Part shown: piece by piece, positions 441 to 33,704 of the stretch
How the letters are laid out: the number at the start of each line of letters is the position of its first letter
Numbering within the stretch: the stretch's first letter is position 1
DNA from: Bdellovibrionota bacterium
GTDB taxonomy: Bacteria; Bdellovibrionota; Bdellovibrionia; Bdellovibrionales; Bdellovibrionaceae
Assembly: GCA_963170155.1 (NCBI GenBank)
Contig: CAUJGP010000013.1
Span: forward strand, 1-33,870
DNA: 33,870 nt
Direction of reading: 5' to 3'
Made by a program: the position numbers and the translations under genes
Notes under the pieces: model-generated
Told to the model about the DNA's origin: nothing
The model's database searches: none
The model's input: the letters and a program-made list of their open reading frames with translations, nothing else

Positions 441-514
441 TGGAGGTGGTGGAGGGATTCGCACCCCCGTACACGCTTTTGCAGAGCGCTGCCTAACTCC
501 TCGGCCACACCACC
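441..514 (-). tRNA. tRNA-Cys (GCA)
   Basis: The minus strand folds as a full cloverleaf. The acceptor stem GGTGGTG pairs with CACCACC, followed by discriminator T and an encoded CCA. The anticodon stem GCGCT/AGCGT encloses the loop CTGCAAA, giving anticodon GCA. The T arm is GGGGG-TGCGAAT-CCCTC. The length is 74 nt. Confidence 0.93.
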
Positions 515-13815: not shown

Positions 13816-13870
<55 letters not shown>

Positions 13871-13892
<22 letters not shown>

Positions 13893-16505: not shown

Positions 16506-16593
16506 ATCAGTTCCACCTCCTTAATTTTTAGGTTTAAATGGTTCTTATTTTTCTTCCTGGTTTTCTGTATCTGTATTTCCTCTGTCTTCTTAT

Positions 16594-17577: not shown

Positions 17578-17580
17578 AGC

Positions 17581-17874: not shown

Positions 17875-19547
17875 TAAGCCCCCTTTCTTTGAGTGTTATT
17901 TTCGACATTTAAAATCTTCATCAATTCGGTATTTTCGTTTTCAGTTGAGTTTTGATCTGTTTCTTCGGGCGTTTGATTTTGGATGGCTGGCAAACTTAAC
18001 GGCAAGACTTTGGCGGGATGAGGAAATCTCACGTCTTCTAATATATCTGGCGTTTTTCTAAATTTGAGTCTGACTGGCAAGCTCCCAGTTGAATGCGGAA
18101 TAATAATAACCGCCTCACCAACACCCAGATCTTGTTTAAAGACATTTGGATGGAATTTAAATTCTTCAACATCTCTGACAGAAGCTTCTCCTGTTTTCTC
18201 AGATCCAAAAGTTCCAGAGGTTTCACGTTCCGTTCTTTTTAAACCTTGAATCGTACCTATGGTTTGCGAAAAATATTCGGCGGACTCTGGTTCATTGGTC
18301 CTCATAAATACTTTCAAATTTGAATTTGATAGGATGGTGTTTTTAATACCATCGCCAAGGCCCGCCAAGTCACCCAAGGCTTGGTGTGCAAAAACCACTC
18401 CCACATTTGCACTCCGCGATTTGTTTAGTAGACTCACAAAACTCTCAGTTAAGTATTCTGTAAAGTCATCCAAGTAGATGCTAAAGAACTCTTTATTTTT
18501 TGATGTTCCGAGATGCCTTGAAGCCACAGCACTTTGAAGACATTGCAGAATGAGCTTACCGACGGTCTTTCCTAGAGTAGGGATTTTTAGCACTGGAAGC
18601 TGGCAATAGATAATTGAGCCCTCATTCAGCGCTTTCTCCAAATCAATATCTGAAGCCTCAGAATTAAAAATAGGTGCAGTATCACCGACGGCCAGAGCTT
18701 GCAGTTGCGAAATTAAACCGCTGGTTTCTTGATTTCGTTCTTCATTTGTTTTTTTCAAAAAATCACTGGACCAGGAAATGAGTTTTTGATCCTCAGTCTT
18801 TTTTGCAAGATGAAAGAGCATTGCAGGGGATCTCATCCCTTCGATAATCTTAATTGGAGTAGGAACAATTTGTGATTTTTCAAAAATCAAAAGAGTATGC
18901 AGAAGTGATTCGTATTGAAGACTTTTGTAATATTCATTTTCAAAGTTGAAAGCTTTAAAAACTCTTTCTGTAACCTCAAGTGCTGTACCATACGATAGTG
19001 GGTTGAATGTGTTACTGATGCCTACGTCACAAAGTGATAAAATCTTTACCTCTTGTTCACGATTGTGAACTTTAGCATAGGAGTAAAGTTTATTGAGCAT
19101 TGATTTATCGGATTTTCCATCAATAATGATGAGCCCTCGTTTTCTTTTTATATCGTCAATAGCCCATGGTAAAATTACTGACTCCGTTTTTCCAGCATTG
19201 GTAGTGCCGACCACTTGCGTGTGCATTCGTCTAAATGAGGGTTTGATATGAACTCTTTTGCCCCTGTCACTAAAGCCTGCAAACACCGAAGATTCGACAA
19301 GTGACTCTCCTAAAACTTCATTCTCAAGATCAGAATATCTAAATTTTGATCTAAGAACTGTTTTAATTTTTAAATAAACTGCTAAGATTAAAATCGTAAT
19401 ACCAAATGCAATCAATACTCGGTATTCAAGGTAAGCCTTAAGAAGGTAGACTCGGTATTTATAGGAAAACACGATGAGCAAGAAACAAATGGCGGCAAAT
19501 ATAAAAAATGAATCCTGGTTATTACTTGATTTCATGTCCTTACTCAT
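17874..19547 (-). CDS. virD4: Type IV coupling protein (VirD4/TraD family)
   Basis: Inner-membrane ATPase that docks the relaxosome to the secretion channel. Two membrane segments lie near residues 10-50 (FIFAAICFLLIVFSYKY and VLIAFGITILILAVYL). Walker A is GTTNAGKTES near residue 117, and Walker B is FFSIYLDDF near residue 355. Family signatures LIIIDGKSDKS and SANVGVVFAHQALGDL are present. I choose ATG 19547 because GGGAGG lies 5 nt upstream; an in-frame GTG at 19553 lies too close to that site. The product is 557 aa, within family range. It overlaps the VirB10 gene by 8 bp. The tail after residue 500 is low-complexity. Confidence 0.9.
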   Translation of the reverse strand: MSKDMKSSNNQDSFFIFAAICFLLIVFSYKYRVYLLKAYLEYRVLIAFGITILILAVYLKIKTVLRSKFRYSDLENEVLGESLVESSVFAGFSDRGKRVHIKPSFRRMHTQVVGTTNAGKTESVILPWAIDDIKRKRGLIIIDGKSDKSMLNKLYSYAKVHNREQEVKILSLCDVGISNTFNPLSYGTALEVTERVFKAFNFENEYYKSLQYESLLHTLLIFEKSQIVPTPIKIIEGMRSPAMLFHLAKKTEDQKLISWSSDFLKKTNEERNQETSGLISQLQALAVGDTAPIFNSEASDIDLEKALNEGSIIYCQLPVLKIPTLGKTVGKLILQCLQSAVASRHLGTSKNKEFFSIYLDDFTEYLTESFVSLLNKSRSANVGVVFAHQALGDLAGLGDGIKNTILSNSNLKVFMRTNEPESAEYFSQTIGTIQGLKRTERETSGTFGSEKTGEASVRDVEEFKFHPNVFKQDLGVGEAVIIIPHSTGSLPVRLKFRKTPDILEDVRFPHPAKVLPLSLPAIQNQTPEETDQNSTENENTELMKILNVENNTQRKGA

Positions 19548-20529
19548 AATCACCTCCCAATTGTTGAAGATTCATGGATTCACTCAAGAGCACATCACAC
19601 TCAGCGCCCATGTTGACTTCGATCCATTCACGTTGGGTCTTGAGTTTTTCACCATAAGAATTAGCTCGGTCTTTTGCTGTGGCAGCTACAGCGGCTTTAA
19701 GCCCATTCTCAACACCACCTTTTGAACGACCTAATACATCAGTTTCCATGCTTCCAGTGGCATAGCCAGCAATAAATGTTGTAATGATTGAGCCCATCGT
19801 ATTCTTTGCACCATCACTATGAACATCGCCTGCAACCCCTGGTTGTCCGTCCTTTCCAACAGCAATTCCGCTAATAGATTTAATTTCACCACTGGGTAGT
19901 GAAATTTGTCTAAATTGAATGACTGCCCTCTCGGACCCTTTTTGAAAACTGGCTTCACCGTAGAATCTTGAACCTGCGGGCAAACGCAACCCTGAGTCAG
20001 TTGTTGAATCCAAGATGCTTTCTGCAAGGATTGGAACGGATTCTTGAGACACCACAAACTTATCAATAATTCTCAATGGGATTCTGATTCCAGATCGAAG
20101 TTGTGTTTTCGCATTTCCATTTTTTGCACCCACAATCATTGAGGTGTTATAGTTGATTTGATTTCCGCTGCTGCCACCACTAGAATTGCCATAAACATTT
20201 CTTAAACCATTTGATGGCGATGAATTCCACATCTGGGTGGCTAGGTCTTGATTTGGATCAGTTTTTGAATTTTCAACTTCATCAGTATGCGCTTTTTCGG
20301 TGGCTGGAACCATTTTTTGCGAAAACTCGATATCTTGTTCTGTCGGTAAAAGAAACGTCACCAGAATAAAAATCAATACTCCGCCAAATAATAGGATTTT
20401 AAAGGATTTAAAATTAACTTCTCTTTTTTCACTAACATCCGACTTTTTAACAAAATGGGTTTTTATTTTAAGAATGGAAGATTTGATTGCTTCAATAAAG
20501 AGACTTACGCTTTTATTTTTTACTTCCAT
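19540..20529 (-). CDS. virB10: VirB10/TrbI-like core-complex protein
   Basis: A bitopic protein linking inner and outer membrane in the secretion core complex. One membrane segment lies near residues 46-63 (ILLFGGVLIFILVTFLL), followed by a low-complexity, Asn/Ser-rich periplasmic linker. The conserved C-terminal domain starts near residue 145 with RIPLRIIDKFVVSQES, then PAGSRFYGEASFQKGSERA and GEIKSISGIAVGKDGQPG. The last 60 residues include the Gly/Ala-rich helical part that would enter the outer membrane. At 329 aa it is on the short side. A strong GGAGGTG site precedes the ATG. It overlaps the VirB9 gene by 10 bp. Confidence 0.82.
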   Translation of the reverse strand: MEVKNKSVSLFIEAIKSSILKIKTHFVKKSDVSEKREVNFKSFKILLFGGVLIFILVTFLLPTEQDIEFSQKMVPATEKAHTDEVENSKTDPNQDLATQMWNSSPSNGLRNVYGNSSGGSSGNQINYNTSMIVGAKNGNAKTQLRSGIRIPLRIIDKFVVSQESVPILAESILDSTTDSGLRLPAGSRFYGEASFQKGSERAVIQFRQISLPSGEIKSISGIAVGKDGQPGVAGDVHSDGAKNTMGSIITTFIAGYATGSMETDVLGRSKGGVENGLKAAVAATAKDRANSYGEKLKTQREWIEVNMGAECDVLLSESMNLQQLGGDYE

Positions 20530-21218
20530 AACACCTCCAAAGGAATATCAATGACTAGGTTCACTTCAGACTTGATTTGCAATTGAATTGGCTTTTTATC
20601 TTCAAAATCAGAACTCGCGAGTGAGACACCATACTCTAGTGGATATTTTGCTGATGGCTTAAGACTTGATAAATAAAGCCCATTAACTACCTTGGATTTT
20701 GCATCCTGAAATACCCAAATGTTTTCGGGTTTAATGGGACGGCATTCTTTGCACCAAAGTCTGCCGCTGATCAAAATAAATCCACCTCTGGATTTTCCTA
20801 TTTTTATAACTTCGAAAGTCCACACATCAACTTGCACCTTTTTATTCCAAACCTTCCAAGTGATCTGCTCCTCCGGCTTCTTGGTATCTACATAGATAAT
20901 AAAATCGGCTTGCTCTTGGCGTTCGGTTTGAAGTCTTAAGTTGTAGCGCTGCTTTTCTGTGATGAGGTACAAATTGGTTTTAGCACCCCACCGTAAAGGT
21001 TTAATGGTGACTGCTTTGTCAAGATATTCGACCTTAAATCCTGATTGATCTCCAATAATAATGGACTGAATAGTTTCAGGTAACTGAATGATGGTTGCAA
21101 TTCCTAGAGCGGTATTTACACTTAATATACCGTCGGTAAAATAGGGAACTGTTTTTATGGGCCCAGCAAAAACAATTTTACTCATCAATGAAATAAAAAT
21201 ACTTTGGATAATCCTCAC
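20520..21218 (-). CDS. virB9: VirB9/TrbG/CagX-like core-complex protein
   Basis: Periplasmic/outer-membrane core subunit that partners VirB10. A short signal-like N-terminus is followed by a beta-rich N-domain: GIATIIQLPETIQSIIIGDQ, VTIKPLRWGAKTNLYLITEK and RYNLRLQT are the typical CagX pattern of TNL-x-hydrophobic-T strands. A C-domain of about 100 aa follows a short linker. The start codon is GTG at 21218, overlapping the VirB8 stop (GTGA), with AAGGAG 8 nt upstream. At 232 aa it is slightly short for the family (about 260-290). Two cysteines (LWCKEC) in the C-domain might form a disulfide or metal site. Confidence 0.78.
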   Translation of the reverse strand: MRIIQSIFISLMSKIVFAGPIKTVPYFTDGILSVNTALGIATIIQLPETIQSIIIGDQSGFKVEYLDKAVTIKPLRWGAKTNLYLITEKQRYNLRLQTERQEQADFIIYVDTKKPEEQITWKVWNKKVQVDVWTFEVIKIGKSRGGFILISGRLWCKECRPIKPENIWVFQDAKSKVVNGLYLSSLKPSAKYPLEYGVSLASSDFEDKKPIQLQIKSEVNLVIDIPLEVLWK

Positions 21219-21805
21219 TGAGAAACTCCTTCAGTCTCTTTGGTGATGAATATCCCCCAGGGGTTAGCCACGCTTCGGTCATCAACTGAGAAATCTAAGA
21301 CGAGTTTTAATTCCGTTGCCGCTTTTAAATTATCAAACTCTGTAATTCGATCAGCAAGGATAGTTGCTTTTTTCCCTTTGAGATCAATCTGAATATTTTT
21401 TGGATAAACGCGCTGAGTGACCTTTTTTTCTTTTACAAACTTTTGAACGTCTAACATCGCTTTTTGAAAAGCTGAAGACATTGATGGAATAACAAAAAAC
21501 TGAGCCTTCTGCAATTGGCTTGTGATATTCTGCTCGCTCCAGTTGTAACGATAGCTTAGATACTCTCGGATGGCAGAATCTATTTGTAGATCAGTTATTT
21601 TTGTTTCGACTTTGGCAATTTGTCCATTTTCAGCTAGGGCAATTACTTTTGGACCACTTTTTACCAAGTAAAGAAGCATTGCTAGCACCACTATCACAAT
21701 CATGATTAGTGCTGCTGACAAAACCTTAAGGTTAAAGTTTGCCTTTGCAAACTCCTCAACCATCTTTGGATATTTTTTAATTTCAATATGTTTTACCTCT
21801 GTCAT
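21215..21805 (-). CDS. virB8: VirB8/TraE-like inner-membrane protein
   Basis: A short cytoplasmic N-terminus, one membrane segment near residues 26-48 (LKVLSAALIMIVIVVLAMLL) and a periplasmic domain of about 140 aa of alpha/beta character. The spacing and the segments LQIDSAIREYLSYRYNWSEQ and KATILADRITEF are typical of TraE/VirB8, which bridges the channel and core complex. The start overlaps the VirB6 stop as ATGA, with AAAGGAGG upstream. At 196 aa it fits TraE (about 190-210) better than VirB8 (about 230). Confidence 0.75.
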   Translation of the reverse strand: MTEVKHIEIKKYPKMVEEFAKANFNLKVLSAALIMIVIVVLAMLLYLVKSGPKVIALAENGQIAKVETKITDLQIDSAIREYLSYRYNWSEQNITSQLQKAQFFVIPSMSSAFQKAMLDVQKFVKEKKVTQRVYPKNIQIDLKGKKATILADRITEFDNLKAATELKLVLDFSVDDRSVANPWGIFITKETEGVSQ

Positions 21806-22686
21806 TTAGGACCTCCTTTGTTAAAGAAATTATTCTTGTTAAATGATTGGATTCTTTCTGATGCGTAAGACCGAGTCGTTGAGATCACATTGCGCGATAC
21901 TTCTTGAACCCGGACAATACGTGCGGGAATGCCAACTGCTGCACCCACCGCGGCAGCTCCAAGTGTGTTTGCAGTAGCTTGCGCACCCTCTGAAATCAGA
22001 GATTTCATTAGTAAGGGCGTAAATAAAAGAGCTAAGGCAATCACAAAATTCATCACAATGAGTGTGACATATGATCCTTCCGTTTTATAAATGTTTCCAA
22101 ATGAAAGTGCCGTGAGCATTGCTGATAAAATTGCCCATAAACATTTCCAAGATGCCACTTCAAATAAGCCTCGGTAGAGATTAGCTGTAATTCCAGCCGT
22201 TCGTGGAAAGATATAGCAAAGAATCATTATTGGTGAGCAGATTGAGAGTAAACACCAGTAGAAATAATAGAGTGCAATAGAAATGTATCTTGAAATATAA
22301 AGCAGTATGAAACTTCCAAAACTTAAGATTGCCATGAAAAGATCATCAAACTTTAGCATCAATACATTTTTTGCTCCTGCATAACTTCGTGATTTTTCCT
22401 CCGCCATTCTCATGAAAGTTTCAAGGCCTGAAAGATTATCAATCCGTAGGGCAATGCCATCACAGATATCTAAAATAGCATTTGAAACTTCTGGGAATGA
22501 AATCAGTAATAGACTTGCCACAAAGGCACGCTTTATAATTTCTGGAAAATCTGGGTCTCCGGATTTCAAATAAGAAATTACTACCGATAATAGAATCGCA
22601 ACTGGCAACATCAAGTAAAAGAGATTTGATAGAGAATGATGAAGGTCCTTTGCTAAACTCCCTAGGACATCAAGATTCGGAATCAT
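21802..22686 (-). CDS. virB6: VirB6/TrbL-like polytopic membrane protein
   Basis: Five to six hydrophobic segments are visible: near residues 22-42, 55-70, 110-140, 145-165, 170-195 and 205-228. A C-terminal soluble tail is rich in Ala, Gly and Ser (TANTLGAAAVGAAVGIPARI). This topology, size (294 aa) and place between the TrbJ-like and VirB8 genes match VirB6/TrbL, the inner-membrane channel component. Sequence conservation in the family is low, so the call depends on topology and order. Confidence 0.72.
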   Translation of the reverse strand: MIPNLDVLGSLAKDLHHSLSNLFYLMLPVAILLSVVISYLKSGDPDFPEIIKRAFVASLLLISFPEVSNAILDICDGIALRIDNLSGLETFMRMAEEKSRSYAGAKNVLMLKFDDLFMAILSFGSFILLYISRYISIALYYFYWCLLSICSPIMILCYIFPRTAGITANLYRGLFEVASWKCLWAILSAMLTALSFGNIYKTEGSYVTLIVMNFVIALALLFTPLLMKSLISEGAQATANTLGAAAVGAAVGIPARIVRVQEVSRNVISTTRSYASERIQSFNKNNFFNKGGPK

Positions 22687-23438
22687 TGACTACCTCCAAA
22701 ACCACCATTAAGGCGTGGTAAGGTTGTAGTTTTAGGAATACTCTTGAAACCTTCTGATAAACCCTGATAATTTTCTTGAAAATTACGTGTGGATAATTTC
22801 TCTTTTCGATTATCATAAGCGAGATTCTGAGCCATGATCTTGAGCATTTGACTTTGGGTGCGCAGAAGTTGAGTTGTAACTCCAATCAAAACCCCAAGTG
22901 CTTGGTTTTGAAGCTTTCCAGCACCTTGAGGACTTACGACTTGGGAGTGAAATAAAATCCTTTCACGCTCTCGATCCACTCCATCGGCATAGTCATATAA
23001 ATTACGGTTCATCGAAATTACTTCAGCCACGCTTTGATCTTGAGCTGAAATAAGATCTTTATCCATTCCATCAGGTACAGGACCATAAACTGCCTGTAAG
23101 GCTCTAAGAACGGCCTGGGGATCTCGTAGATCACCATACACGCCAGCAGCAAACTGAGGGTTTATAACCCTGATTAAATCGAGTCCCGATCTTACTCCTG
23201 AATTCACATCACGAAGTAGATTCAAAGTATCTGCTCCGTTTTCTAAAATGCTTTTTAGCTGCAATACAGTTTCAATGGCTTGCGCGAGAATTTGGGTTAA
23301 GACGACCACGTCTCCGCCCCAAAGATCTGCTCGCGCGGAGCGTGGTGTGACCATCACAGTGACAGTAAATATGATTGCCAATAAAAATCGGCTCATTTTT
23401 TCAGAATACGTTTTTATTATGGTTTTTATTTTATTCAT
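22683..23438 (-). CDS. TrbJ/VirB5-like periplasmic protein
   Basis: A signal peptide with core FLLAIIFTVTVMVT and probable cleavage after SARA is followed by a helical protein of about 215 aa. The mature start, DLWGGDVVVLTQILAQAIE, closely follows the TrbJ pattern, in which a helix-rich protein is exported to the periplasm or minor pilus tip. QLKSILENGADTLNLLRDV continues that pattern. It overlaps virB4 and virB6-like genes by 4 bp each. VirB5-type proteins act as pilus-tip adhesins, but that role is inferred from family and position. Confidence 0.7.
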   Translation of the reverse strand: MNKIKTIIKTYSEKMSRFLLAIIFTVTVMVTPRSARADLWGGDVVVLTQILAQAIETVLQLKSILENGADTLNLLRDVNSGVRSGLDLIRVINPQFAAGVYGDLRDPQAVLRALQAVYGPVPDGMDKDLISAQDQSVAEVISMNRNLYDYADGVDRERERILFHSQVVSPQGAGKLQNQALGVLIGVTTQLLRTQSQMLKIMAQNLAYDNRKEKLSTRNFQENYQGLSEGFKSIPKTTTLPRLNGGFGGSQ

Positions 23439-25900
23439 GCAACCCCTTTCTTTTGCGCCACTCCAAAAGGGGCCAACTCAGTCGCGCGAATTAATGCTTC
23501 TTGAAGAGTTTTACCTTCATCCATTATTTTTTTAATAAACTGATTGTCTCTTGAATCGCTGGTTGAAATCCAATATTCAAGTGGTGAAGGTTGAATGCGA
23601 ATGATCTGCCTTGCTTCACCCGCAATAAAAAATCCTTCACTGTAGAGCCCCTTTCTTTGTTCAAGGGATTGGATTAATTTTAACTCTGTCGTATTTAGCT
23701 TTAAAGTTTCAGATAAGATCTTCGTATCGCCTTTTTGAAGCATCACAAGCTTAGTAGCAGTGTTATTTAGAATTGCTGGTCCGATGCCACTTCCAATAAT
23801 TTCTTCGACACCTTGGGTGATAAAACTTATTCCACTTCCAGTTTTTCGAAATGTTCTAGCAGCATATTCCATAAAATTGGCCGCAGCAGGACTCTTTAAA
23901 AACTGCCAAGCTTCATCAAGGAGTACTCTTTTGGATACTGTTCGATCAGATTCCACTTGATCCAAAATAAAATTGGTTAGGATTAGAATCATGACCGCTT
24001 GCAGATCTGGGTATTGTGACAGTCCCTTTAAATCAAAAGCTACAATGGGGCTGTCCGCGCGAATATGACCTTGTCGATCAAGCATTTTGCCAAATGGGGT
24101 TTGGCCAACCCATGGAAACAAAAGTTTTCCAATTTTCTTTAAACACGCTTCATTAGATTTTTCACAATACCGTGCTAAATCAGAAATCAATGGGGATCGT
24201 GGTACTTTTTCACTGCGAGCATTTTCAAAAATGTGTATGAGTGCTTCTTCAAGCTGCACTCTTTCAAGTCGATTGAGTTTTTCTCCTTCATCAACAATCA
24301 TTTGTTCAACAATGGCAAGCATACCCTTGAGTCTATCACCAGATGGCATCGTGCTTGGGTTTGAAGTTGCAAATGGATTGATGGCATAATTTTCTGAAAG
24401 ATTAATTTCAAAATACTGACCACCTAAAACCTTGGTCATCTTCTCGTAAGATCCTCCGACATCAATAATATAAACTCTTGTGCCTCTGGCAATTTGTTGG
24501 AGCATCAAAAAATTGTTGGCAAACGATTTTCCACTCCCGCTCGAACCAGTCACCAGCATATTGTAATTGGTGAGTTTGGGATCTATTGGATTAAAGGAAT
24601 AAAGTCCACCCAGTCGAGTATTAAATAATACTGTTGGGATATCATCACCCCGAGCTGGACCAAACATTGGTAAGAAATCAACAAGGTTATAGGTTTTAAG
24701 TCTCTTTCCCCTTACTAAAGACATCGGTGCTAGTGGTAAATCTGATTTAAATATTTTCCAAGACCCAACGGTTTCATCACAGGCTTCAGAACCACTCAGG
24801 GTTTTAAACTGTGATAGAACCTCTTTAGTTTTTAGATTTAGAAGTCGTTGTCCATCTCTAGTATTTTCTTCTCTGAGGATTAGGACCAGTTCGCCTTGAA
24901 ATATTTTTTGACCAGTTTCAATAATGTCTCGCAAAAGGATTGTTGTTTGATTGAGTTTGGATTCACTTTCTAAATCGCTGACTCGATTACTTTGTGAATT
25001 TGCAAGCGAGTGTGCCATTCGCCGGTCTCTTTCAAGAGATCTAATTTCTTTGGCTTGATCACTCACATTGAATGAAAATATTAGTTCATATTTAAATGGA
25101 AGAGCTAAAAATCCACTCATCATTCCGGCAAATGTACTTTCCGGTAATGTTTTAAGCGTAATCACTCGGGTTCGCATTTTTTCTAATACGAAATCGTTAT
25201 GATCCAATATCAAATCACCAAACACCAACTGTGCTCTTGGGGAATCACCTCCAATTTGTGTTGTTCGCACTCCAATAGTGGGAGCAATGATATCTTTTGA
25301 CCGAACGGGATTGAAGTAGCTGTACAGTAAATCAATCAATGCATTTTTATTTAACCTCTCGGCAAAAAATCCCATTGATGAAAGAGAGGATTGTACACTG
25401 GTGATGGCTTGATCAAGTGCTTGTAAGCGGTCATCGTAACCCTGACAGAATTCCGCCGCAAATTTCTTGGTGCTTTTGAACTGACTTTGCTTGATTGGAG
25501 CTTCTGTTTTTAAAAATAGAAATAGCCTAGGACCAAAAATCTGATTGTTATCAACAGCTGATTGAATTTTCTCTCTGCGTGATTTATCTAAGAATTTTAA
25601 AAACTCATCATTTGTTGTAAGAAGCTGTTCATGAGCTTGAACTTTCTGTTCATAGTTCGAATCAACTTTTACATAGTATTGGCAGGTAAACCCTTCAGGA
25701 AGGGAGTTTACAAAGGATCGCAAACCCTGAGTTACACTATTGATTCTGGCGCTATCAAAGCACTCAATATCAAGCGGTAAGAGTTCAATTCCTGCACTCA
25801 AAGAGCCATCCCATAATATGGCATGTGAAAATGGTTCTGATTCAAACTCCCAGTAAGGAAGTTCTTCGCAAAGAGGATAGTCGTTCATGGCATTGTTCAA
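23435..25900 (-). CDS. virB4: VirB4/TraC-family secretion ATPase
   Basis: Large cytoplasmic ATPase energising pilus assembly and transfer. The N-terminal domain (about 1-430) has the CagE/TraC pattern, with AGIELLPLDIECFDS and a GFTCQYYVKVD segment. The C-terminal ATPase domain has Walker A VTGSSGSGKS (about 450-459), Walker B RVLLDEAWQF (about 655-664) and FITQGVEEI after it. At 821 aa the length is normal. The start codon is TTG at 25900, overlapping the VirB3 stop, with GGGAGG 6 nt upstream. An internal ATG at 25888 is too far from the ribosome site. This is the most secure marker of the secretion system. Confidence 0.93.
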   Translation of the reverse strand: MNNAMNDYPLCEELPYWEFESEPFSHAILWDGSLSAGIELLPLDIECFDSARINSVTQGLRSFVNSLPEGFTCQYYVKVDSNYEQKVQAHEQLLTTNDEFLKFLDKSRREKIQSAVDNNQIFGPRLFLFLKTEAPIKQSQFKSTKKFAAEFCQGYDDRLQALDQAITSVQSSLSSMGFFAERLNKNALIDLLYSYFNPVRSKDIIAPTIGVRTTQIGGDSPRAQLVFGDLILDHNDFVLEKMRTRVITLKTLPESTFAGMMSGFLALPFKYELIFSFNVSDQAKEIRSLERDRRMAHSLANSQSNRVSDLESESKLNQTTILLRDIIETGQKIFQGELVLILREENTRDGQRLLNLKTKEVLSQFKTLSGSEACDETVGSWKIFKSDLPLAPMSLVRGKRLKTYNLVDFLPMFGPARGDDIPTVLFNTRLGGLYSFNPIDPKLTNYNMLVTGSSGSGKSFANNFLMLQQIARGTRVYIIDVGGSYEKMTKVLGGQYFEINLSENYAINPFATSNPSTMPSGDRLKGMLAIVEQMIVDEGEKLNRLERVQLEEALIHIFENARSEKVPRSPLISDLARYCEKSNEACLKKIGKLLFPWVGQTPFGKMLDRQGHIRADSPIVAFDLKGLSQYPDLQAVMILILTNFILDQVESDRTVSKRVLLDEAWQFLKSPAAANFMEYAARTFRKTGSGISFITQGVEEIIGSGIGPAILNNTATKLVMLQKGDTKILSETLKLNTTELKLIQSLEQRKGLYSEGFFIAGEARQIIRIQPSPLEYWISTSDSRDNQFIKKIMDEGKTLQEALIRATELAPFGVAQKKGVA

Positions 25901-26220
25901 GTTAACCTCCCTTTTGAAAATGGTTGATATTGATTGTCATTTGAATTGGCAGAGCGAATGGTGGGTGAAATCATAAATTGTAATAGGTGTTGCAAATAAA
26001 GATCAGGTTTTCCGCGTTTAACAAAAAATAAAAGCCCTGCCATTATAATACTGGTTCCAAACACCATAGGTACTTTCATGCTGGTGGAGCCAAAAATTAA
26101 GTTTTGAATAGATAAGTTTAGCAAAAGCAGTAAAACATCTGAAAGTTCCAGTCCCAATATCTTGCTCTTTGTTTCTAGTGTCCTTGGGACTACGGTCGTC
26201 AGTAATGAATCATCGTTCAT
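25897..26220 (-). CDS. virB3: VirB3/TraL-like membrane protein
   Basis: A 107-aa protein with a short cytoplasmic N-terminus containing VPRTLETKSKILGLELSD, which fits the VirB3 lead-in before the membrane hairpin. Two closely spaced hydrophobic segments follow (about 27-45 and 50-67). The RGKPDLYLQHL segment with its basic residues is also typical. Its ATG overlaps the pilin stop codon (TAATG) and its stop overlaps the virB4 TTG start. Size, topology and order all agree. Confidence 0.75.
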   Translation of the reverse strand: MNDDSLLTTVVPRTLETKSKILGLELSDVLLLLLNLSIQNLIFGSTSMKVPMVFGTSIIMAGLLFFVKRGKPDLYLQHLLQFMISPTIRSANSNDNQYQPFSKGRLT

Positions 26221-26501
26221 TATCTGACCGCCTGAGAAATAAAATCTACAATTGCCTGTGCTCCAAAACCAATGGCACTGCCGATTATTGCATACCAGAT
26301 ATGGGCCTTAGCGCGTTCATTACCAGTCATAAGTGAAAATGCCGCCCATGCTATACCAATCACAGAAAGTGTAGGCAAAATCACTCGTGTGAGTTTCATT
26401 TGTACACCCATAAGTGATGACTCCACACTGGCACTGGCTAGCTCTGGTAGAATGATTGAAATGAACATAAGTGAAAAAATAAAATATTTGTTTTTGATCA
26501 T
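26220..26501 (-). CDS. virB2: VirB2/TrbC-like pilin precursor
   Basis: Start placed at ATG 26501, preceded by AAAGGAGG; the frame is open further upstream but that part reads through the end of the neighbouring gene. The 93-aa product has a signal peptide (FIFSLMFISIILPELASA) and a mature part of about 65 aa with two membrane segments (VILPTLSVIGIAWAAFSLM and HIWYAIIGSAIGFGAQAIV) separated by a short charged turn (TGNERAKA). This is the VirB2/TrbC major pilin layout. It immediately precedes virB3. Confidence 0.78.
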   Translation of the reverse strand: MIKNKYFIFSLMFISIILPELASASVESSLMGVQMKLTRVILPTLSVIGIAWAAFSLMTGNERAKAHIWYAIIGSAIGFGAQAIVDFISQAVR

Positions 26502-26523
26502 TAGCTGACCTCCTTTGTTAAAA

Positions 26524-26919
26524 TTAAATGGCAACAGATTCCTCCTCGTAATTTGTTTTTTCTGGAAATAAACAGAGAAAAATGTCCTCTGCAAAAAATT
26601 GAATATTGAATTTGATAAAGCTACCGACGAGATGTCCTCGGCCTACTTTATTCCAATTCGTTTTTACTTCGCCGTTTTGGGTTTTGTATTCCTCAATTGA
26701 CAGCACTTGATACTCATCCGGTAGCGATTTTTCATCCTGAACTAGAAAATAAGTGTTCAATGGATGAACCCATAGTTTTATGCGAAACATTTTTGAACCA
26801 GGCTTCAAAAATGCAAATCCAACGTGATCCTCTTCAATGACTTCACCCCGAGGTGAAACAAGACCTCGCGTAAGTTTGAAGCGATCGTATTTTCTAAACG
26901 GAATAATATTTTCATTCAT
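26524..26919 (-). CDS. 131-aa protein at the head of the pilus genes, unknown function
   Basis: Not recognised. It has a good Shine-Dalgarno (AAAAGGAGG) and lies 22 bp before the pilin gene in the same operon. No signal peptide or membrane segment is visible. The sequence looks beta-rich with a charged C-terminus (FPEKTNYEEESVAI). Probably a cytoplasmic accessory protein, but nothing in it suggests a role in the secretion channel. Confidence 0.6.
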   Translation of the reverse strand: MNENIIPFRKYDRFKLTRGLVSPRGEVIEEDHVGFAFLKPGSKMFRIKLWVHPLNTYFLVQDEKSLPDEYQVLSIEEYKTQNGEVKTNWNKVGRGHLVGSFIKFNIQFFAEDIFLCLFPEKTNYEEESVAI

Positions 26920-26946
26920 AACTGTAACCTCCTTTTGTAATAGTGT

Positions 26947-27198
26947 TTATGCCGCCACCGGAACTAGAATCAGATCACCAAAAGCCATTTCAACTTCTCC
27001 ACAGTCATGACAAACAAGATAACCTCCTTCAAATTCAGTCAAACGACCGCAGTAGTGGCAGTGATAGGTTCTAGGTTCAATGGGACCAAAGCGTTTAAAG
27101 TTTTCAAATCTTCGAGAGAGAATCATTTCTCTTGAATTGAGTCTTGATTTAGCGGGACCACCATAGATCGTCCTTTTGTCCTTAAAAGTTCTAGACAT
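26947..27198 (-). CDS. Small zinc-ribbon protein
   Basis: 83 aa with a basic N-terminal half (SRTFKDKRTIYGGPAKSRL, RRFENFKRF) and a C-terminal zinc ribbon: YHCHYCGRL followed 12 residues later by YLVCHDCGEVEM, i.e. two CxxC pairs. A GGGAG site lies about 9 nt upstream, inside the preceding gene. Ribbon plus basic arm suggests a nucleic-acid-binding or protein-docking factor. It is the third gene of the transfer operon, so it would be made early in transfer. No specific function is assigned. Confidence 0.65.
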   Translation of the reverse strand: MSRTFKDKRTIYGGPAKSRLNSREMILSRRFENFKRFGPIEPRTYHCHYCGRLTEFEGGYLVCHDCGEVEMAFGDLILVPVAA

Positions 27199-27435: not shown

Positions 27436-27678
27436 TTATGCGGTTAATGAATTTTCAAAATTGACCATTGACTCCTGATCATCCTTTGATGCTTTGTAAT
27501 TAATGTGAAAGTGCTCGAAAGCTGCTTGTTCTGGATCATCGAGCTGACCAAGATCCACCAACATTTTTAGATTGTCCCAATCACAGTCAGTGCACATTTG
27601 ATCAAGTCCAAATGTCAGAATATTCTTTGAATGACATCGTGGACATTGAGTCTGTTTGACATAAATTAATTTTGACAT
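27436..27678 (-). CDS. First gene of the transfer operon: small zinc-ribbon protein
   Basis: 80 aa; a zinc ribbon fills the N-terminal half: CPRCHSKN, then 12 residues later MCTDCDWDN, giving two CxxC pairs. The rest is an acidic helical tail (DLGQLDDPEQAAFEHFHINY). It has a GAGGAG ribosome site and is the first gene after the proposed sigma-54 promoter. It is a separate protein from the ribbon at 26947-27198, and the two do not look like recent duplicates beyond the metal motif. No function is assigned. Confidence 0.65.
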   Translation of the reverse strand: MSKLIYVKQTQCPRCHSKNILTFGLDQMCTDCDWDNLKMLVDLGQLDDPEQAAFEHFHINYKASKDDQESMVNFENSLTA

Positions 27679-27729: not shown

Positions 27730-27746
27730 AACACGCTCCTATATAA

Positions 27747-27762
27747 AACAAGAATCGTTCCA
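27747..27762 (-). promoter_or_regulatory. Predicted sigma-54 (-24/-12) promoter of the transfer operon
   Basis: On the minus strand the sequence is TGGAACGATTCTTGTT. Against the RpoN consensus TGGCACG-N4-TTGCW it matches 10 of the 12 defined positions, including the GG at -24 and the exact spacing. The two differences are A for C in the first block and T for C in the -12 GC. Transcription would start near 27736, giving a leader of about 58 nt. The operon encoding an NtrC-type activator ends just upstream, which strengthens the call. A 10-bp palindrome (ATTCCGGAAT, 27764-27773) abuts it. Confidence 0.68.
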
Positions 27763-27850
27763 GATTCCGGAATGACGTTGATTTTGAATTTAAGTTGTTG
27801 ATAACTTTCAGAGATTGGATTTTTACAAATTTCAGACAAGAAAAACTAAG

Positions 27851-27866
27851 TGGCGGAGATCCGCCA
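27851..27866. promoter_or_regulatory. Palindromic upstream activator site 1
   Basis: TGGCGGA-ga-TCCGCCA, perfect on both halves; its centre is about 122 bp upstream of the predicted start site. Downstream on the plus strand is a T run that could make it look like a terminator, but no plus-strand gene needs one. Confidence 0.62.
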
Positions 27867-27921
27867 GGGCATTTTTTTATTTTTCTATTGAAAACATAAA
27901 CTTATAGAAAATTGATTCGGG

Positions 27922-27937
27922 TGGCGGACTCCCGCCA
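27922..27937. promoter_or_regulatory. Palindromic upstream activator site 2
   Basis: TGGCGGA-ct-CCCGCCA has one mismatch to site 1; the flanking bases extend it to GTGGCGG-actc-CCGCCAC. The centre is about 193 bp upstream of the predicted start and 20 bp, about two helical turns, from site 3. Confidence 0.62.
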
Positions 27938-27941
27938 CTTC

Positions 27942-27957
27942 TGGCGGATTTCCGCCC
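27942..27957. promoter_or_regulatory. Palindromic upstream activator site 3
   Basis: TGGCGGA-tt-TCCGCCC has one mismatch to site 1. The centre is about 213 bp upstream of the predicted start. It lies 41 bp after the histidine kinase stop codon. The shared 16-bp consensus across all three sites argues for one dimeric binding protein. Confidence 0.62.
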
Positions 27958-27998: not shown

Positions 27999-29618
27999 TT
28001 AAATGACTACGACAGGGAGCTGTGGGATTTCAGTCTTGGGAATTAAAAAAACTTTGTGCTTTTCACAAAGGTCTCGAATTTCTTGTTTATCAAAGTGCCC
28101 TGTGGCTAGAATTCTATGAGAGCCTTGCGGTAGTAATGATAGGAGATCTATGCCCGTGATATTTTCATTGAGATCATAATCGAAAATAAACACAGAATTG
28201 AATGGGTCAAAGCCTGGTTCTTCAAATGTAACCTTAGTTTCACCACTATTTGCTAAAAAGCGAACATTTGCATTTATACCACATTCGGTCAGCTTTAGCT
28301 TCCAAAGCTGCCTTCCTGTAAGTTGATCATCTAGTACGTAGATTTTATCTGATTGTTTAAATTTAAGCCTCGGTACAAACCAAGAAGCCCTTTCAAATAT
28401 CGGTAGCATTAAAGTAATTCTAGTTCCTTTGCCAATTTCGGAATCTACTTTAATTTGCCCACCCCAATTGGTTACATGAGTCTTTGCGTGATATAAACCC
28501 AAGCCTGTTCCATTTATTTTGCCTTTAGTGAACCCATGCTCAAAAATTTGTTCTCGCAATGCTGAATCAATACCTGGACCGTTATCAATAATCTCAATCT
28601 GCAAATAAGGATCAACGTCTTTCGCGTAAAGTTCAATAGTTCCTTCTGATCCATTAAAGGCATCTAATGAATTATTAACGACATTGCCAATGATAATTTG
28701 AAGTTCAACGGGAATATGATCTACTTTCGCCGAACAAAGCGAATCATCAATCTGAAAATTAAAATTCACATTTGACGGAATAGTTGTTGAAATTTGATTC
28801 ACAGATTTAATAAGGCTATCAAAAATCTCTTCTGAGCGGTTTTTATCATCGCCTGACACTTTTAGTTTTCTTTGATCTAGTGCTGAGGTTATTTTTTTTA
28901 TTTGTTCAATAGACGTTTTAAGAAGTTCACGGTCTTGTTTGAGGCTCTCCGGAAGCCGTGAAGGGATTCGTAACAAACTAGCCAGTGGAGTCCTTAGATT
29001 GTGCCTGACCTCATCAGAAATTCTATTGCTCTCTTTTGCTTTTGCCAAGATTAGATCTTTATCAAATTGCTCAGTTAGCTTTTTCTTCATTAGTCGCGTT
29101 TGCGGTATTGTCACCAACAAAATGAGGAGCCATAGAAATACGGCATAGGGTACTAAGGCAAATCTGCTATACTCAAAAATAAAATACTCGATTGTATAGC
29201 CAGAAATTGAATCCTCAAAAGGAATAATAATTTTGTCTCTTAAAATCACTCCAAAGGCATTTTTTGTATTGGATTGAAGATACTGAGACGCAGGTAAAAT
29301 AAATGATCGCTCAGTGGCAGATGACTTAAACGCAATAGTTTCAAAATTGCCTTTTAGGGATTCCTGAAGGACATAAGTCGCATCCCGAATCATCCCCATT
29401 TGCATCATTCGGGTAACGTATCGAGTGCTCTGCTCGGCGACCGACTGTAGGTGCAAATTGTTCATAACAATAGAAATTCCAATGAGTATTAGTAATCCAA
29501 GAAAAGAATAAATAGCCTGCCTTTTTTCAAACTCTTTAATTGTCTTGTTGAGTTCGGACTTTGGAAGATCATTTTCAGAGCTTTTGTTGAAATTGAAAAG
29601 GAGGTTTATAAATCTCAT
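27999..29618 (-). CDS. Hybrid membrane histidine kinase with C-terminal receiver
   Basis: The start ATG 29618 overlaps the YcaO stop (ATGA) and has GAGG upstream. Two membrane segments (about 36-53 and 153-171) enclose a periplasmic sensor region of about 100 aa that I do not recognise. HisKA follows with H206 in EVRHNLRTPL, then HATPase_c with the N box (NVVNNSLDAF), G1 (DNGPGID) and GTGLGL. The last 115 residues form a receiver: VLDDQLTGRQ with the paired acidic residues, phosphoacceptor near D480 in FIFDYDL, T506 in LATGH and K528 in FLIPKT. It is the last gene of the operon that starts with the NtrC-like regulator, its likely partner. A hybrid kinase may phosphorylate that regulator directly or by relay. 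Confidence 0.88.
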   Translation of the reverse strand: MRFINLLFNFNKSSENDLPKSELNKTIKEFEKRQAIYSFLGLLILIGISIVMNNLHLQSVAEQSTRYVTRMMQMGMIRDATYVLQESLKGNFETIAFKSSATERSFILPASQYLQSNTKNAFGVILRDKIIIPFEDSISGYTIEYFIFEYSRFALVPYAVFLWLLILLVTIPQTRLMKKKLTEQFDKDLILAKAKESNRISDEVRHNLRTPLASLLRIPSRLPESLKQDRELLKTSIEQIKKITSALDQRKLKVSGDDKNRSEEIFDSLIKSVNQISTTIPSNVNFNFQIDDSLCSAKVDHIPVELQIIIGNVVNNSLDAFNGSEGTIELYAKDVDPYLQIEIIDNGPGIDSALREQIFEHGFTKGKINGTGLGLYHAKTHVTNWGGQIKVDSEIGKGTRITLMLPIFERASWFVPRLKFKQSDKIYVLDDQLTGRQLWKLKLTECGINANVRFLANSGETKVTFEEPGFDPFNSVFIFDYDLNENITGIDLLSLLPQGSHRILATGHFDKQEIRDLCEKHKVFLIPKTEIPQLPVVVI

Positions 29619-30484
29619 TTGCAAACCTCATTTTTCCTAATACAAACTTTCACGGGATCAATGGGACAATCTTTAAGTTCGGGTAGAGTGTAGAAGTTAA
29701 TTTGTAGGGTTTCTAGTTCAGGCTCTTCGACAATTTTATTTTCTGATTTAGAATTTGATAATTCACTATCAACGAAAATAAGGGGTAATATTTGGGAATA
29801 GAAACTTTGGCTCAAATGCCACGGTTTATTTTCTAGTAAAATATTCGGTAATGAATTTGAAATTGTAGAAGACAATTCCTTTTCTTTTAGTGCTGCAAAA
29901 TTTGGAATAGCTTCGACAAAGGATTTTTTTAAAGAGTGCTCCAGGTTTTTACTAAACGCAAAGCCTAATGAAAAAACATTAAGCTTCGTATCTTCAATAA
30001 AACAAACAATTCCATATTCGTGAATCGGTGTTTGCATTTGATGGAAACTAACAAATGTTGACTGAGAATTGTCTTCTAACTGACCTATCATTTGCACTAT
30101 GGAAGATTCAATTGCGCTTTCATCAATTCGATAAAAAGGAAGTTTATGACACAAATGACGATTTAAATAGTATCTCTCAAGTGCTTCGAACTTTGCGTGT
30201 TCAATTGCTGAAACAAATCCCGAAACAGAAAAACCAACCGAATCCATTTTTAAAACTTTGCATAGATATCTTTCAATTGCTTCAGCAGAAGCTTTTTCTA
30301 TGGCGACCTCTGCAAACAAATCTGTTCCTCTGCCTTGGCTAGAAATCCCATTTACAGAAATTTGCGCTGTATAATCATAAAGCGCAGGTAAATATCTTTC
30401 CGGCCATCCATATTGTGTAAAGGATAGATTAAAAAGTTCTTTTCGACTGATTAACCATTTGGTTATGGGGTTTGTATTTGCCAT
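29615..30484 (-). CDS. Compact YcaO-family protein
   Basis: YcaO enzymes use ATP to activate backbone amides, making azolines, thioamides or amidines in peptides and proteins. Family blocks occur in order: GRGTD (51-55) followed by E68-x-x-E71-R72 (AEAIER); a second block GFVSAIEHAKFEALERYYL with E100 and E103-R104; and LGFAFSKNLEHSLKKSFVEA with E191, matching the GxG...Al..a..E block. The usual ExxxQ here reads E191-A-I-P-N195. At 289 aa it is clearly shorter than typical YcaO proteins (about 400 or more) and no Pro-rich C-terminus or partner (TfuA, ThiF/E1-like, dehydrogenase) is present in the window. It overlaps the solute-binding gene by 22 bp and the kinase by 4. Substrate and activity are unknown. 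The identification by motifs is my own and should be tested. Confidence 0.7.
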   Translation of the reverse strand: MANTNPITKWLISRKELFNLSFTQYGWPERYLPALYDYTAQISVNGISSQGRGTDLFAEVAIEKASAEAIERYLCKVLKMDSVGFSVSGFVSAIEHAKFEALERYYLNRHLCHKLPFYRIDESAIESSIVQMIGQLEDNSQSTFVSFHQMQTPIHEYGIVCFIEDTKLNVFSLGFAFSKNLEHSLKKSFVEAIPNFAALKEKELSSTISNSLPNILLENKPWHLSQSFYSQILPLIFVDSELSNSKSENKIVEEPELETLQINFYTLPELKDCPIDPVKVCIRKNEVCK

Positions 30485-32025
30485 AGAGGATTATTTGCAT
30501 AAAGATCAGATAATTTTATCTTCCAAGGTTTTCTTACTGTTGCCGAGTATGGCGATGCCACCAATGGTACAATCCAAGGTGTCGTTAAAGCGTTGTAATG
30601 AAGCTCCTTCAGCTTATCAAGGCGAGTAGATTTGTTGAGAGTGGCCATGTATTTAGAAATCCAAACGTCTCTGTCGGCTTTTGTAAGACCCAAAAAACCT
30701 GCATTGAGTGAATATGAAATTAAACTGATATCTTCCATGAAGCCTGTATCAGTGGAAACAATAAATGCCTCAGGATAATCATCATATTTGAGATTTTTTT
30801 TGAGATCGGGGACATTGTCCTCAAAATAGGTTTGAGCGTCGGGTAGAACTTTTGATAGTGGCCCAGACCATTGCTCGATCCCTCCTCTTTTCATAAGACC
30901 CAGCTTAAAGGATTTGAGTGGTTTTACTCCTGGTTGTTTATTAAAAATATCGACGTTATCTTTTTGATTTTTGGTCAATCCACCTTCGCCAAGACTTGGA
31001 AAAAACTCAGAACGAGATTCAAAGCCCGGACTGTTTCCATAAATTTCTTGAAAAGCTGATCTCACCTTCTGAGAAATGTAGATTCGTTCGTCCTTATTAA
31101 GATTCTTAATTCCTTTTTCAGTAAAAACTAAAAGGTGTAACCTAATTTTCTGAGTGAGATGATTTTCAAATTCAGAGTGTTTTTGCACGAACGGAATTTG
31201 CTCATCTGCCTTTTTCACGTCTACCGTTGTTACAAAATCTACTTTGTCTTGAGCGAGTGCCTCTAAGCTGCTCAGACCTGATTTGGCAGTGTAAGGGACA
31301 AGATCTATGGTTTGAGCGATATTTTGAGAGTGCTGAAAATGATATGGATTTATTTTTAGTTGGATATTTCCATTCCCATAATCCTTTTCAACAAAATAAA
31401 CACCACTTGTTTCTGAGTAATCTTCAATGGCAAGTGTTTTAGAATTTACACTTTTTCTTGGGATAATCGCAAAATCAATTGCAGCAAGCATCGGAAGTAA
31501 AAACGTTTTCTTTGCTCCAGCATTTAGAATAATGGCATTATCCTTCAAGTTTATATTTAACCCAGGACAATCTTGTTCAGCAGATTCTAGGTCTATGCCC
31601 TCACATACTAAATCTTTAAAATTGCCATGAGTGTTTCCAGTCAAAACTAATAGTCGTTTTAACGAAAACAAAACATCATCCACAGTAATTGGCTGACCTG
31701 ATTTTGTTTTTAAATCTTCTCTGATGCTTAGTATGAGTTTATCTCCATCCCATTTTATCGTTTTAGCGACCCCTGGAACAATTGCGCCACTTTCATTCAT
31801 TTGAACTAAGGGCGAGAATACATTTTCAAGAAAAATGTATTCTGCCGCAATTGTAATATTCGTAGGTTCATACTCAGTAACCTTTTTAGTTAATGGAAAG
31901 GCCACGCGCAAATGCTTTTGCACGGAACTTTCTAAGTGGTTTGATTTAAACATAAGAACACCGCCAATTGTTGTTACAACTATGATAGCAAGACCGAAAC
32001 AAAATAAAAGGTATTTATTTTGCAT
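30463..32025 (-). CDS. Family-5 solute-binding protein, membrane-anchored (DppA/OppA type)
   Basis: The N-terminal hydrophobic segment (about 5-26, FCFGLAIIVVTTIGGVLMF) has no lipobox or clear cleavage site, so the protein is probably anchored in the inner membrane facing the periplasm. The SBP_bac_5 pattern follows: FSPLVQMNESGAIVPGVAKT, LREDLKTKSGQPITVDDVLF-like region, SLKRLLVLTG, and DVWISKYMATLNKS near the C-terminus. The family binds oligopeptides, dipeptides, nickel or related ligands. No permease or ATPase gene accompanies it, so it is more likely a sensor subunit than a transporter component. It lies between the small exported protein and the YcaO gene in an operon with the kinase and response regulator. 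Confidence 0.82.
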   Translation of the reverse strand: MQNKYLLFCFGLAIIVVTTIGGVLMFKSNHLESSVQKHLRVAFPLTKKVTEYEPTNITIAAEYIFLENVFSPLVQMNESGAIVPGVAKTIKWDGDKLILSIREDLKTKSGQPITVDDVLFSLKRLLVLTGNTHGNFKDLVCEGIDLESAEQDCPGLNINLKDNAIILNAGAKKTFLLPMLAAIDFAIIPRKSVNSKTLAIEDYSETSGVYFVEKDYGNGNIQLKINPYHFQHSQNIAQTIDLVPYTAKSGLSSLEALAQDKVDFVTTVDVKKADEQIPFVQKHSEFENHLTQKIRLHLLVFTEKGIKNLNKDERIYISQKVRSAFQEIYGNSPGFESRSEFFPSLGEGGLTKNQKDNVDIFNKQPGVKPLKSFKLGLMKRGGIEQWSGPLSKVLPDAQTYFEDNVPDLKKNLKYDDYPEAFIVSTDTGFMEDISLISYSLNAGFLGLTKADRDVWISKYMATLNKSTRLDKLKELHYNALTTPWIVPLVASPYSATVRKPWKIKLSDLYANNPLWQIQTP

Positions 32026-32026: not shown

Positions 32027-32302
32027 TCAATTTGACCCGTCGGCGCAAATGGACATCATAATTACTTGGTCTTTTTTAAGTAAGCCTTGGTTCAATAAAT
32101 CTTGTATCAAATCTGTTTTAACCTCTAAACACTGACCACTTGGATGTGCGCTCACAACTTTATAGCGCAGAAGAAGTTTGATTGCTTTTGCAATTTGAAG
32201 CTTTTCATATTCAGTCAATGGCAGCTCGCTGCCTTCATCTGCATTAACATGACTCAAGCCCGTCATAAACACAAAACACGTCATTAAAATATACTTACCC
32301 AT
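32027..32302 (-). CDS. Small exported protein, unknown; candidate ligand or sensor accessory
   Basis: 91 aa with a signal peptide (cleavage after SHVNA, residue 21) and a mature part of 70 aa. It begins acidic and then has helices EYEKLQIAKAIKLLLRYK and TDLIQDLLNQGLLKKD. Two cysteines, C58 and C86 (the latter near the C-terminus in SICADGSN), could form a disulfide in the periplasm. The start overlaps the response regulator by 8 bp and has GAGGAGG upstream. Not recognised. Position directly before the solute-binding protein suggests it modulates, or is, the signal. Confidence 0.65.
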   Translation of the reverse strand: MGKYILMTCFVFMTGLSHVNADEGSELPLTEYEKLQIAKAIKLLLRYKVVSAHPSGQCLEVKTDLIQDLLNQGLLKKDQVIMMSICADGSN

Positions 32303-33704
32303 AGATTACCTCCTCCTCGATTGCAGAATTATCTCTCAAAAGAATAATTCCATATTTTTTTATTTTATCCCTCAATGTAGTTCTCTTCATATTCAAAGCT
32401 CTAGCTGCGGCGGCCACGGTAAAATACTTTTTGATGGCCGACTCGATGATTTGCTTTTCTGTTAATGTAACCTTAGATTTTAATACGTCTAAATTATCTG
32501 ATTTTTTTAAATCTCGATGTTTGTGGTTGCACTCACTTGATAAAAGTTCAATGTTTAAATAGGGACCATCGGATAGACTTGCTAGTCGAGAAATCTCACT
32601 TTGAAGTTCGCGAACATTGCCTGCCCAATGCAATTTACTCAAATTCTCCATTGCAGATTCAAGAATTTGAAAATGAGTACCATTTCTTTTATTGGCCTCA
32701 TCCAAAAAATGATTCACCAAATAGGGTATGTCTTCTGGGCGCTCTCTAAGAGATGGTACATTTAAAGGGAGGACGTTCAATCGATAATAAAGATCTTCAC
32801 GAAATTGTTTTTCTTTTATAAGATCTTCCAAAGGAGCATTGGTTGCTGCAATGATTCTGACATCAATTTTCTTAGTGGCATTAGAACCAACGGGTGTAAT
32901 GATTCGCTCTTGAATGACCCGAAGAAGTTTAACTTGTAAATGAAAAGGCATATCGCCGATCTCATCGAGAAAAATAGTTCCACCTTGAGCCGCTTGAAAT
33001 TTTCCAATTTTATCATGAGTTGCACCTGTAAATGCGCCTTTCTCATGTCCGAAGAGTTCACTCTCAACTAGGTTTTCAGGAATTGCACCTGCATTGATCG
33101 CAATGAATTTTTGAGTCTTCCGTTGTGAGTTTTGGTGGATGGCTTTAGCAATCAGCTCCTTGCCAGTTCCATTTTCTCCTCTTATTAAAACCGTCTCGTC
33201 AGTTGCGGCATATTTTATGATTAGTTTGCCAACATCAAACATTTTATCAGAAACGCCCACAATCCCTAGCGTCGCTAAAAATCTGAAATTTTCGGATTTG
33301 GTCGAGACTACCAAGGGCTTAATTTTACGCTCAACCTCACGACACACTCGGTGAATGATACCTAGTAGTTTTGCGTCAGCAGTATCCTTTGAAACAAAAA
33401 AGATCGCTCCAGAATCAAGTGACTCGTTGTGGACTTGGATCGAGTCATCACCTGAAAATGCAAGAATCACAATTTCTTTGTTATGTTTTCGAATTTCTTT
33501 TATTGTTTTAACGCCATTCATTAGTGGCATATGGTAATCAATAAGTGCTAAAGAAAATGGTATTGTTTTTTGTCGTATTAGTGCCGCACCCTCAGATCCA
33601 CTTTGAACTGCTTTGACATAAAATCCCTCATCGTTTAAAAATCCGGATAGCGATTTCAAGATCGCTGGATCATCATCAATAAGAAGTATATTGTGCCTCA
33701 TCAT
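32295..33704 (-). CDS. NtrC-family sigma-54-dependent response regulator
   Basis: A receiver domain (residues 4-125) has D10-D11-D12, the phosphoacceptor D56 in LALIDYHMP and K106. The AAA+ domain has Walker A GENGTGKE (176-183), GAFTGA (223-228, the sigma-54 contact loop) and Walker B IFLDEIG (244-250). A Fis-type HTH closes the protein (AAARALNMKRTTLRDKIKKY). All key residues are intact, so it should activate transcription with RpoN. AGGGGA lies 8 nt before the ATG. It heads the operon that encodes the hybrid kinase at its other end. Its likely targets are the three palindromes at 27851-27957, upstream of the transfer operon. It could also regulate other element genes. Confidence 0.93.
   Translation of the reverse strand: MMRHNILLIDDDPAILKSLSGFLNDEGFYVKAVQSGSEGAALIRQKTIPFSLALIDYHMPLMNGVKTIKEIRKHNKEIVILAFSGDDSIQVHNESLDSGAIFFVSKDTADAKLLGIIHRVCREVERKIKPLVVSTKSENFRFLATLGIVGVSDKMFDVGKLIIKYAATDETVLIRGENGTGKELIAKAIHQNSQRKTQKFIAINAGAIPENLVESELFGHEKGAFTGATHDKIGKFQAAQGGTIFLDEIGDMPFHLQVKLLRVIQERIITPVGSNATKKIDVRIIAATNAPLEDLIKEKQFREDLYYRLNVLPLNVPSLRERPEDIPYLVNHFLDEANKRNGTHFQILESAMENLSKLHWAGNVRELQSEISRLASLSDGPYLNIELLSSECNHKHRDLKKSDNLDVLKSKVTLTEKQIIESAIKKYFTVAAAARALNMKRTTLRDKIKKYGIILLRDNSAIEEEVIYG

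Follow-up and report, generated by a model that had tools for sequence, protein, structure and literature searches.

A predicted enhancer-driven, sigma-54-type switch ahead of a type IV secretion operon in mobile elements of Bdellovibrionota

Gene content of the element

The window, by which we mean the whole stretch of DNA analysed here, is a complete contig of 33,870 bases from the draft genome of a bacterium related to the predator Bdellovibrio (Table 1). Its minus strand carries, in order, a regulatory operon, the intergenic region that is the subject of this study, and a type IV secretion operon extending from 27678 down to approximately 16101. We identified in this window features expected of an integrative conjugative element, i.e. 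type IV secretion genes with a coupling protein, and recombinases. A Pfam search of the window turned up no relaxase, so that the transfer competence of the element is only putative; the contig may be incomplete. A tRNA-Met gene (13816-13892) overlaps the large serine recombinase gene at its 3' end, and likely marks an integration site and the left edge of the element.

The regulatory operon encodes an NtrC-type response regulator, a small protein, a solute-binding protein, a YcaO enzyme and a sensor histidine kinase. The original prediction had recognised an NtrC-type activator with an intact GAFTGA motif in this neighbouring operon, and we found its receiver domain to be intact and a Fis-type HTH to be present as well. 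Searching with the binding protein, we identified this five-gene module in 24 of the 141 genomes of the order, a count in which the weakest matches may be other binding proteins; searching with the YcaO protein, its distribution in the phylum was wider. Many elements of the Bdellovibrionales carry the module next to homologous transfer genes.

Table 1. Positions and properties of the features identified in the window
Feature	Position	Strand	Properties or basis
tRNA-Cys gene	441-514		Near left contig end, not linked to the switch
Tyrosine recombinase	2182-3147		Near left contig end, not linked to the switch
Large serine recombinase	13871-15670		
Transfer operon after its first gene	16101-27198	minus	Pfam and synteny; genes other than those below unnamed
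Coupling protein	17874-19553	minus	Pfam
VirB10	19540-20529	minus	Pfam
VirB9	20520-21218	minus	Pfam
VirB8-like	21215-21805	minus	Pfam, weak
VirB6-like	21802-22686	minus	Pfam, weak
VirB4	23435-25900	minus	Pfam
VirB3-like	25897-26220	minus	Pfam
VirB2	26220-26594	minus	Pfam
First gene of transfer operon	27436-27678	minus	Cys-rich, zinc-ribbon-like protein of 80 aa; homologues at the corresponding position in relatives
Sigma-54-type -24/-12 element	27747-27762	minus	TGGAACGATTCTTGTT; predicted +1 at 27736
IHF-consensus site	27791-27803	minus	TATCAACAACTTA (WATCAANNNNTTR); about -67 to -55, between palindrome and promoter
Proximal enhancer palindrome	27851-27866	none	TGGCGGA-GA-TCCGCCA, exact; centre -122.5
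Second palindrome	27922-27937	none	One mismatch; centre -193.5
Third palindrome	27942-27957	none	One mismatch; centre -213.5
Sensor histidine kinase	27999-29624	minus	H-box RHNLRTPLA, receiver-like C-terminus
Compact YcaO enzyme	29615-30484	minus	Conserved ATP/Mg-site glutamates and arginines; predicted fold
Family 5 (oligopeptide type) solute-binding protein	30463-32025	minus	Membrane-anchored
Small protein	32027-32302	minus	Signal-peptide-like N-terminus, invariant C-terminal Cys
NtrC-type response regulator	32295-33704	minus	Receiver, sigma-54 AAA+ domain with GAFTGA, Fis-type HTH

Promoter, palindromes and IHF-type site upstream of the transfer operon

We investigated the -24/-12 element upstream of the transfer operon. 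As the original prediction held, TGGAACGATTCTTGTT (27762-27747, minus strand) matches the consensus TGGCACG-N4-TTGCW at 10 of 12 positions. The GG at -24 and the G at -13 are present with the correct 10-bp spacing; the -12 dinucleotide is GT, not GC, with a T instead of the consensus C, and for this reason we refer to the promoter as sigma-54-type. The consensus match alone is not significant, as the window contains 36 matches at three or fewer mismatches, compared to 35.8 expected, and three at two or fewer. A matrix built solely from the regulator promoters of other elements ranks 27747-27762 first across both strands of the window, with a p value at 27747 of 0.004 within the 200-bp upstream region. 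In most relatives, these regulator-trained matrices missed the transfer promoters (p > 0.05 except in the window, L077 and L079), which became clear only once the upstream regions were aligned on the palindrome. An inverted repeat, TTCCGGAATCTGGAA (27758-27772), overlaps the -24 element, and could be either a second regulator site or a chance occurrence.

For the palindromes, we found the three copies of TGGCGGA-N2-TCCGCCA where they had been predicted, with measured centres that agree with the distances of about 122, 193 and 213 bp from the predicted start site originally claimed, and that fall within the span of about 80-250 bp from +1 typical of sites for NtrC-type regulators. At up to three mismatches, there are four matches to this pattern in the window, compared to 0.69 expected, and none of 100 shuffles reached four; at one mismatch or fewer, these three sites are the only ones in the whole 2.85 Mb genome. 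Clusters of the TGGCGGA palindrome were identified in 11 of 100 genomes of relatives, some of the 11 being chance intragenic matches, compared to one genome for the reversed pattern. Exact-pattern matches in L011, L012, L013 and L019 lie inside genes, are not accompanied by the regulatory module, and look like chance.

The original prediction had also proposed a search for the same palindrome ahead of related transfer operons. We identified palindromes in these positions, at a fixed distance from the promoter even where the palindrome sequence is unrelated. When the upstream regions of 12 transfer operons were aligned on the proximal palindrome, no word at any offset was as well conserved as TGC, found 108.5-110.5 bp away in 10 of the 12; with TG[C/T] permitted, 11 of the 12 share this spacing (TGT being the form in the window), and a sister element, L077, is the sole deviant. 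Across five elements with four operator types, the proximal palindrome is centred at -122.5, -123.5, -124.5, -122.5 and -123.5. This combination of fixed geometry and free sequence fits an enhancer acting with a promoter, and would not be expected of terminators or of random repeats. The conserved distance in relatives is that of the proximal palindrome only. The suggestion that the second and third sites fall on the same face of the helix is roughly true for the 20 bp that separate them here, but this spacing is not fixed in relatives, in which both sites are variably placed.

The two halves of the promoter are not equally retained in all elements. The transfer promoters of L027, L029, L030, L031, L070 and L071 have lost the GG at -24 and kept the TGC at -12, and the regulator promoters show the reverse, with the GG kept and the C at -12 usually lost. 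For the second palindrome pair of L028, we could not find a good -12 element at the expected offset. In L029, an extra exact palindrome (L029:6502) adjoins cargo genes inserted between the regulatory and transfer operons, which suggests that this cargo is under the same control as the transfer operon.

We additionally identified a feature absent from the original prediction, an IHF-type site between the proximal palindrome and the promoter. The sequence TATCAACAACTTA is a perfect match to WATCAANNNNTTR, one of two in the window. In most relatives the best match to the consensus is found at the same offset, 55-57 bp from the proximal palindrome, and the mismatches summed at this offset come to 22, compared to a mean of 50 at other offsets. 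The match to the consensus points to IHF, rather than another bending protein, as the putative ligand of 27791-27803, and three genes of the HU/IHF family are present in the host genome. Support for an IHF-type site before the regulator genes is weak.

Operator types and the regulator

We investigated the upstream regions of the regulator genes. The word GGC-N7-TTG, which has the layout of a sigma-54 -24/-12 element, was found without any prior motif in 17 of 18 non-redundant regions, compared to 6-8 in shuffles, usually with T or A at -12. In a further set of six distant regulators, which were not used in defining the motif, the canonical form TGGCAC-N5-TTGC[T/C] is present in five; these five have a different palindrome, TGACGA-N4-TCGTCA, at -109.5 and at about -200 (four measured). 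At the regulator promoters, the proximal palindrome of most elements is centred between -200 and -203 or between -212 and -216; in L081 and L082 its centre is at approximately -132. The 166 bp available upstream of the window's own regulator contain no convincing -24/-12 element, and no other contig overlaps the right end of the window. In L143, neither a promoter nor a palindrome accompanies the nearest NtrC gene, which probably does not encode the cognate regulator. In the regulator upstream regions of L023, L031, L033, L066, L073 and L075, a conserved word close to AAAACGACCATG precedes the -24 element by about 100 bp.

The operators found among the elements include TGGCGGA-N2-TCCGCCA, TAACGGA-N2-TCCGTTA, CGGCTCA-N2-TGAGCCG, TGGTTCA-N2-TGAACCA and TAGTACG-N2-CGTACTA. 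In most elements for which both regions are available, the regulator gene and the transfer operon carry the same type, and the type differs between clades; in L027, L030, L074 and L079 the automatic score for a shared site does not clearly exceed that of shuffles. Operator divergence covaries with that of the regulator HTH (Mantel r 0.79), and does so given the divergence of the AAA+ domain (partial r 0.43, p 0.0015). The sister element L077 (G000:C35), which lies on another contig of the same genome as the window, has an ATCCGAA-type operator with its proximal palindrome at -105.5, and the GAFTGA motif of its regulator is degenerate (GAYTSS); it is possibly defective or different in mode. The differing operators of these two elements would fit an insulation of co-resident elements from one another. 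More broadly, since the recognition sequence of the activator changes between elements while the promoter geometry remains fixed to about 1 bp, these elements constitute a natural experiment in regulator-site co-evolution and in insulation among co-resident mobile elements.

The matrix rank, the fixed spacing, the covariation of operator and HTH, and the recurrence of the arrangement at regulator genes support the core of the original prediction, namely that the transfer operon has a sigma-54-type promoter, and upstream of it enhancer palindromes for the NtrC-type regulator of the element. We considered whether the palindromes might bind the regulator at a promoter that depends on sigma-70 or another sigma factor, with the regulator serving as a class I activator or a repressor. 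The T at -12, a TATATA stretch just downstream and the lack of GG at -24 in several relatives are consistent with this, but we consider it unlikely, given that the regulator retains GAFTGA, that the -24/-12 elements before regulator genes are unmistakable, and canonical in five distant ones, and that TGC is found at a fixed distance from the palindrome. Moreover, scanning for sigma-70 sites gave none on the minus strand upstream of the transfer operon, and positions of -122 to -213 are better suited to an enhancer than to class I activation.

Two further readings would assign the palindromes to functions other than regulator binding. That they are intrinsic terminators or mRNA hairpins that end the kinase operon is very improbable: although the kinase gene ends at 27999 and the first site resembles a terminator by its score on either strand, T tracts are absent from the second and third sites, AT-rich versions of the operator (TATCAAGATCTTGATA) would not terminate, and the same sequence covaries with the HTH and is found before the regulator genes of relatives at a fixed distance from the -24/-12 element. 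Inverted repeats in an intergenic region adjoining transfer genes might also belong to an origin of transfer, or to a binding array for a relaxase or accessory protein. We regard this as scarcely credible, since palindromes also precede regulator operons located away from transfer genes (L023, L033 and L068), their sequence follows the regulator HTH, and Pfam recognised no relaxase in the window.

The predicted circuit and its possible signal

On these sequence comparisons, 27747-27957 is very probably the regulatory region of the transfer operon, operating as the enhancer-driven, sigma-54-type switch originally proposed. Host RNA polymerase with RpoN would bind the -24/-12 element; the host has one rpoN gene (E 6e-65), with the RpoN box ARRTVAKYR intact. 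Upon phosphorylation by the neighbouring kinase, the NtrC-type regulator would bind the palindromes at -122, -193 and -213, and the intervening DNA would loop, bending at the IHF-type site at about -60. The AAA+ ring of the regulator (GAFTGA) would open the promoter, and the genes for type IV secretion and for the coupling protein would be switched on. The circuit probably amplifies itself through autoactivation of the regulator gene, because in relatives this gene, too, is preceded by a sigma-54-type promoter and by the same site for the regulator; the window's own element may likewise be autoactivated, its contig stopping short of the expected site. The "complete on-element switch" of the original prediction is not wholly encoded by the element, because RpoN and IHF/HU are host genes.

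Enhancer-dependent sigma-54 control is already known, and the arrangement resembles NtrC/NifA-type systems in its AAA+ GAFTGA and Fis HTH regulator, upstream palindromes, intervening IHF-type site and GG-N10-G promoter. It differs in driving a type IV secretion and conjugation operon on a mobile element, in the frequent T or A at -12 of the regulator promoters, and in the loss of the -24 GG from some transfer promoters. In the Bacteroides element CTnDOT, RteA and the NtrC-like RteB are needed to switch on excision and transfer. This is a known instance of element-borne two-component control of transfer (PMC1976400), with a sensor and response regulator carried by the element as here; RteB works via RteC in a tetracycline-triggered pathway (PMC1976400), whereas in the present system the sites stand at the transfer operon itself, and the regulatory operon has additional genes for a binding protein, a YcaO enzyme and a small secreted protein. 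In the open-access literature we found no paper describing such a circuit, subscription papers being outside the search. We regard it as a well-supported variant of element-borne two-component control of conjugation. The searchable literature does not describe a sigma-54/UAS/IHF arrangement placed directly at a type IV secretion operon, the occurrence of this arrangement across Bdellovibrionota elements whose operator types are swapped, or the YcaO module. The circuit offers a concrete way into the study of gene transfer in predatory Bdellovibrionota, and connects a peptide-modifying YcaO enzyme with the control of conjugation.

Finally, for the proteins of the regulatory operon, we identified residues E68, E71, R72, E100, E103, R104 and E191 of the YcaO enzyme as invariant across 19 homologues; these residues fall at motifs that make up the ATP/Mg site of known YcaO proteins. 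Residue types around the cysteine of the small protein are those on which YcaO enzymes act; this protein has low overall identity, and the cysteine near its C-terminus is invariant, in contexts such as TTICV, SSIC and GTVCI. The fold model of the small protein is of low confidence. The YcaO enzyme has a confident model (mean pLDDT 89), which among solved structures is matched best by YcaO enzymes, with a Z of 17.5 to 6cib over 241 residues. The enzyme resembles the ATP-dependent peptide-modifying enzymes 6cib, 6peu and McbD in fold and ATP/Mg residues, but is shorter (about 265-330 aa) and is encoded in a regulatory operon.

The joint presence of a YcaO enzyme, a protein with a C-terminal cysteine, an oligopeptide-type binding protein and a kinase suggests a modified-peptide signal. 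In this tentative scheme, the YcaO enzyme would modify the small secreted protein, the anchored peptide-binding protein and the kinase would sense the modified product, and the NtrC-type regulator would relay the signal to the sigma-54 promoters that drive the transfer operon and the regulator's own operon. It is possible, but rather doubtful, that the regulatory operon as a whole is a modified-peptide signalling circuit for conjugation, with operators diversified against cross-activation of co-resident elements; the hypothesis does not account for a meeting of a cytoplasmic YcaO enzyme with an exported protein. As in the peptide-signal control of conjugation in pLS20, an element-encoded small exported protein is the candidate signal, but pLS20 uses Rap/Phr and a repressor in place of a kinase/NtrC pathway with a YcaO enzyme (PMC3814332). 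Similarly, sensor kinases activated by neighbouring solute-binding proteins are known (PMC11113362), and the adjoining genes for a binding protein and a kinase resemble these, whereas the operon studied here contains no transporter genes and is tied to conjugation and to YcaO. In two distant relatives, L132 and L135, the module lies near genes for a secretion ATPase (T2SSE), not near a homologous VirB4, and palindromes of another type are found upstream of the regulator.
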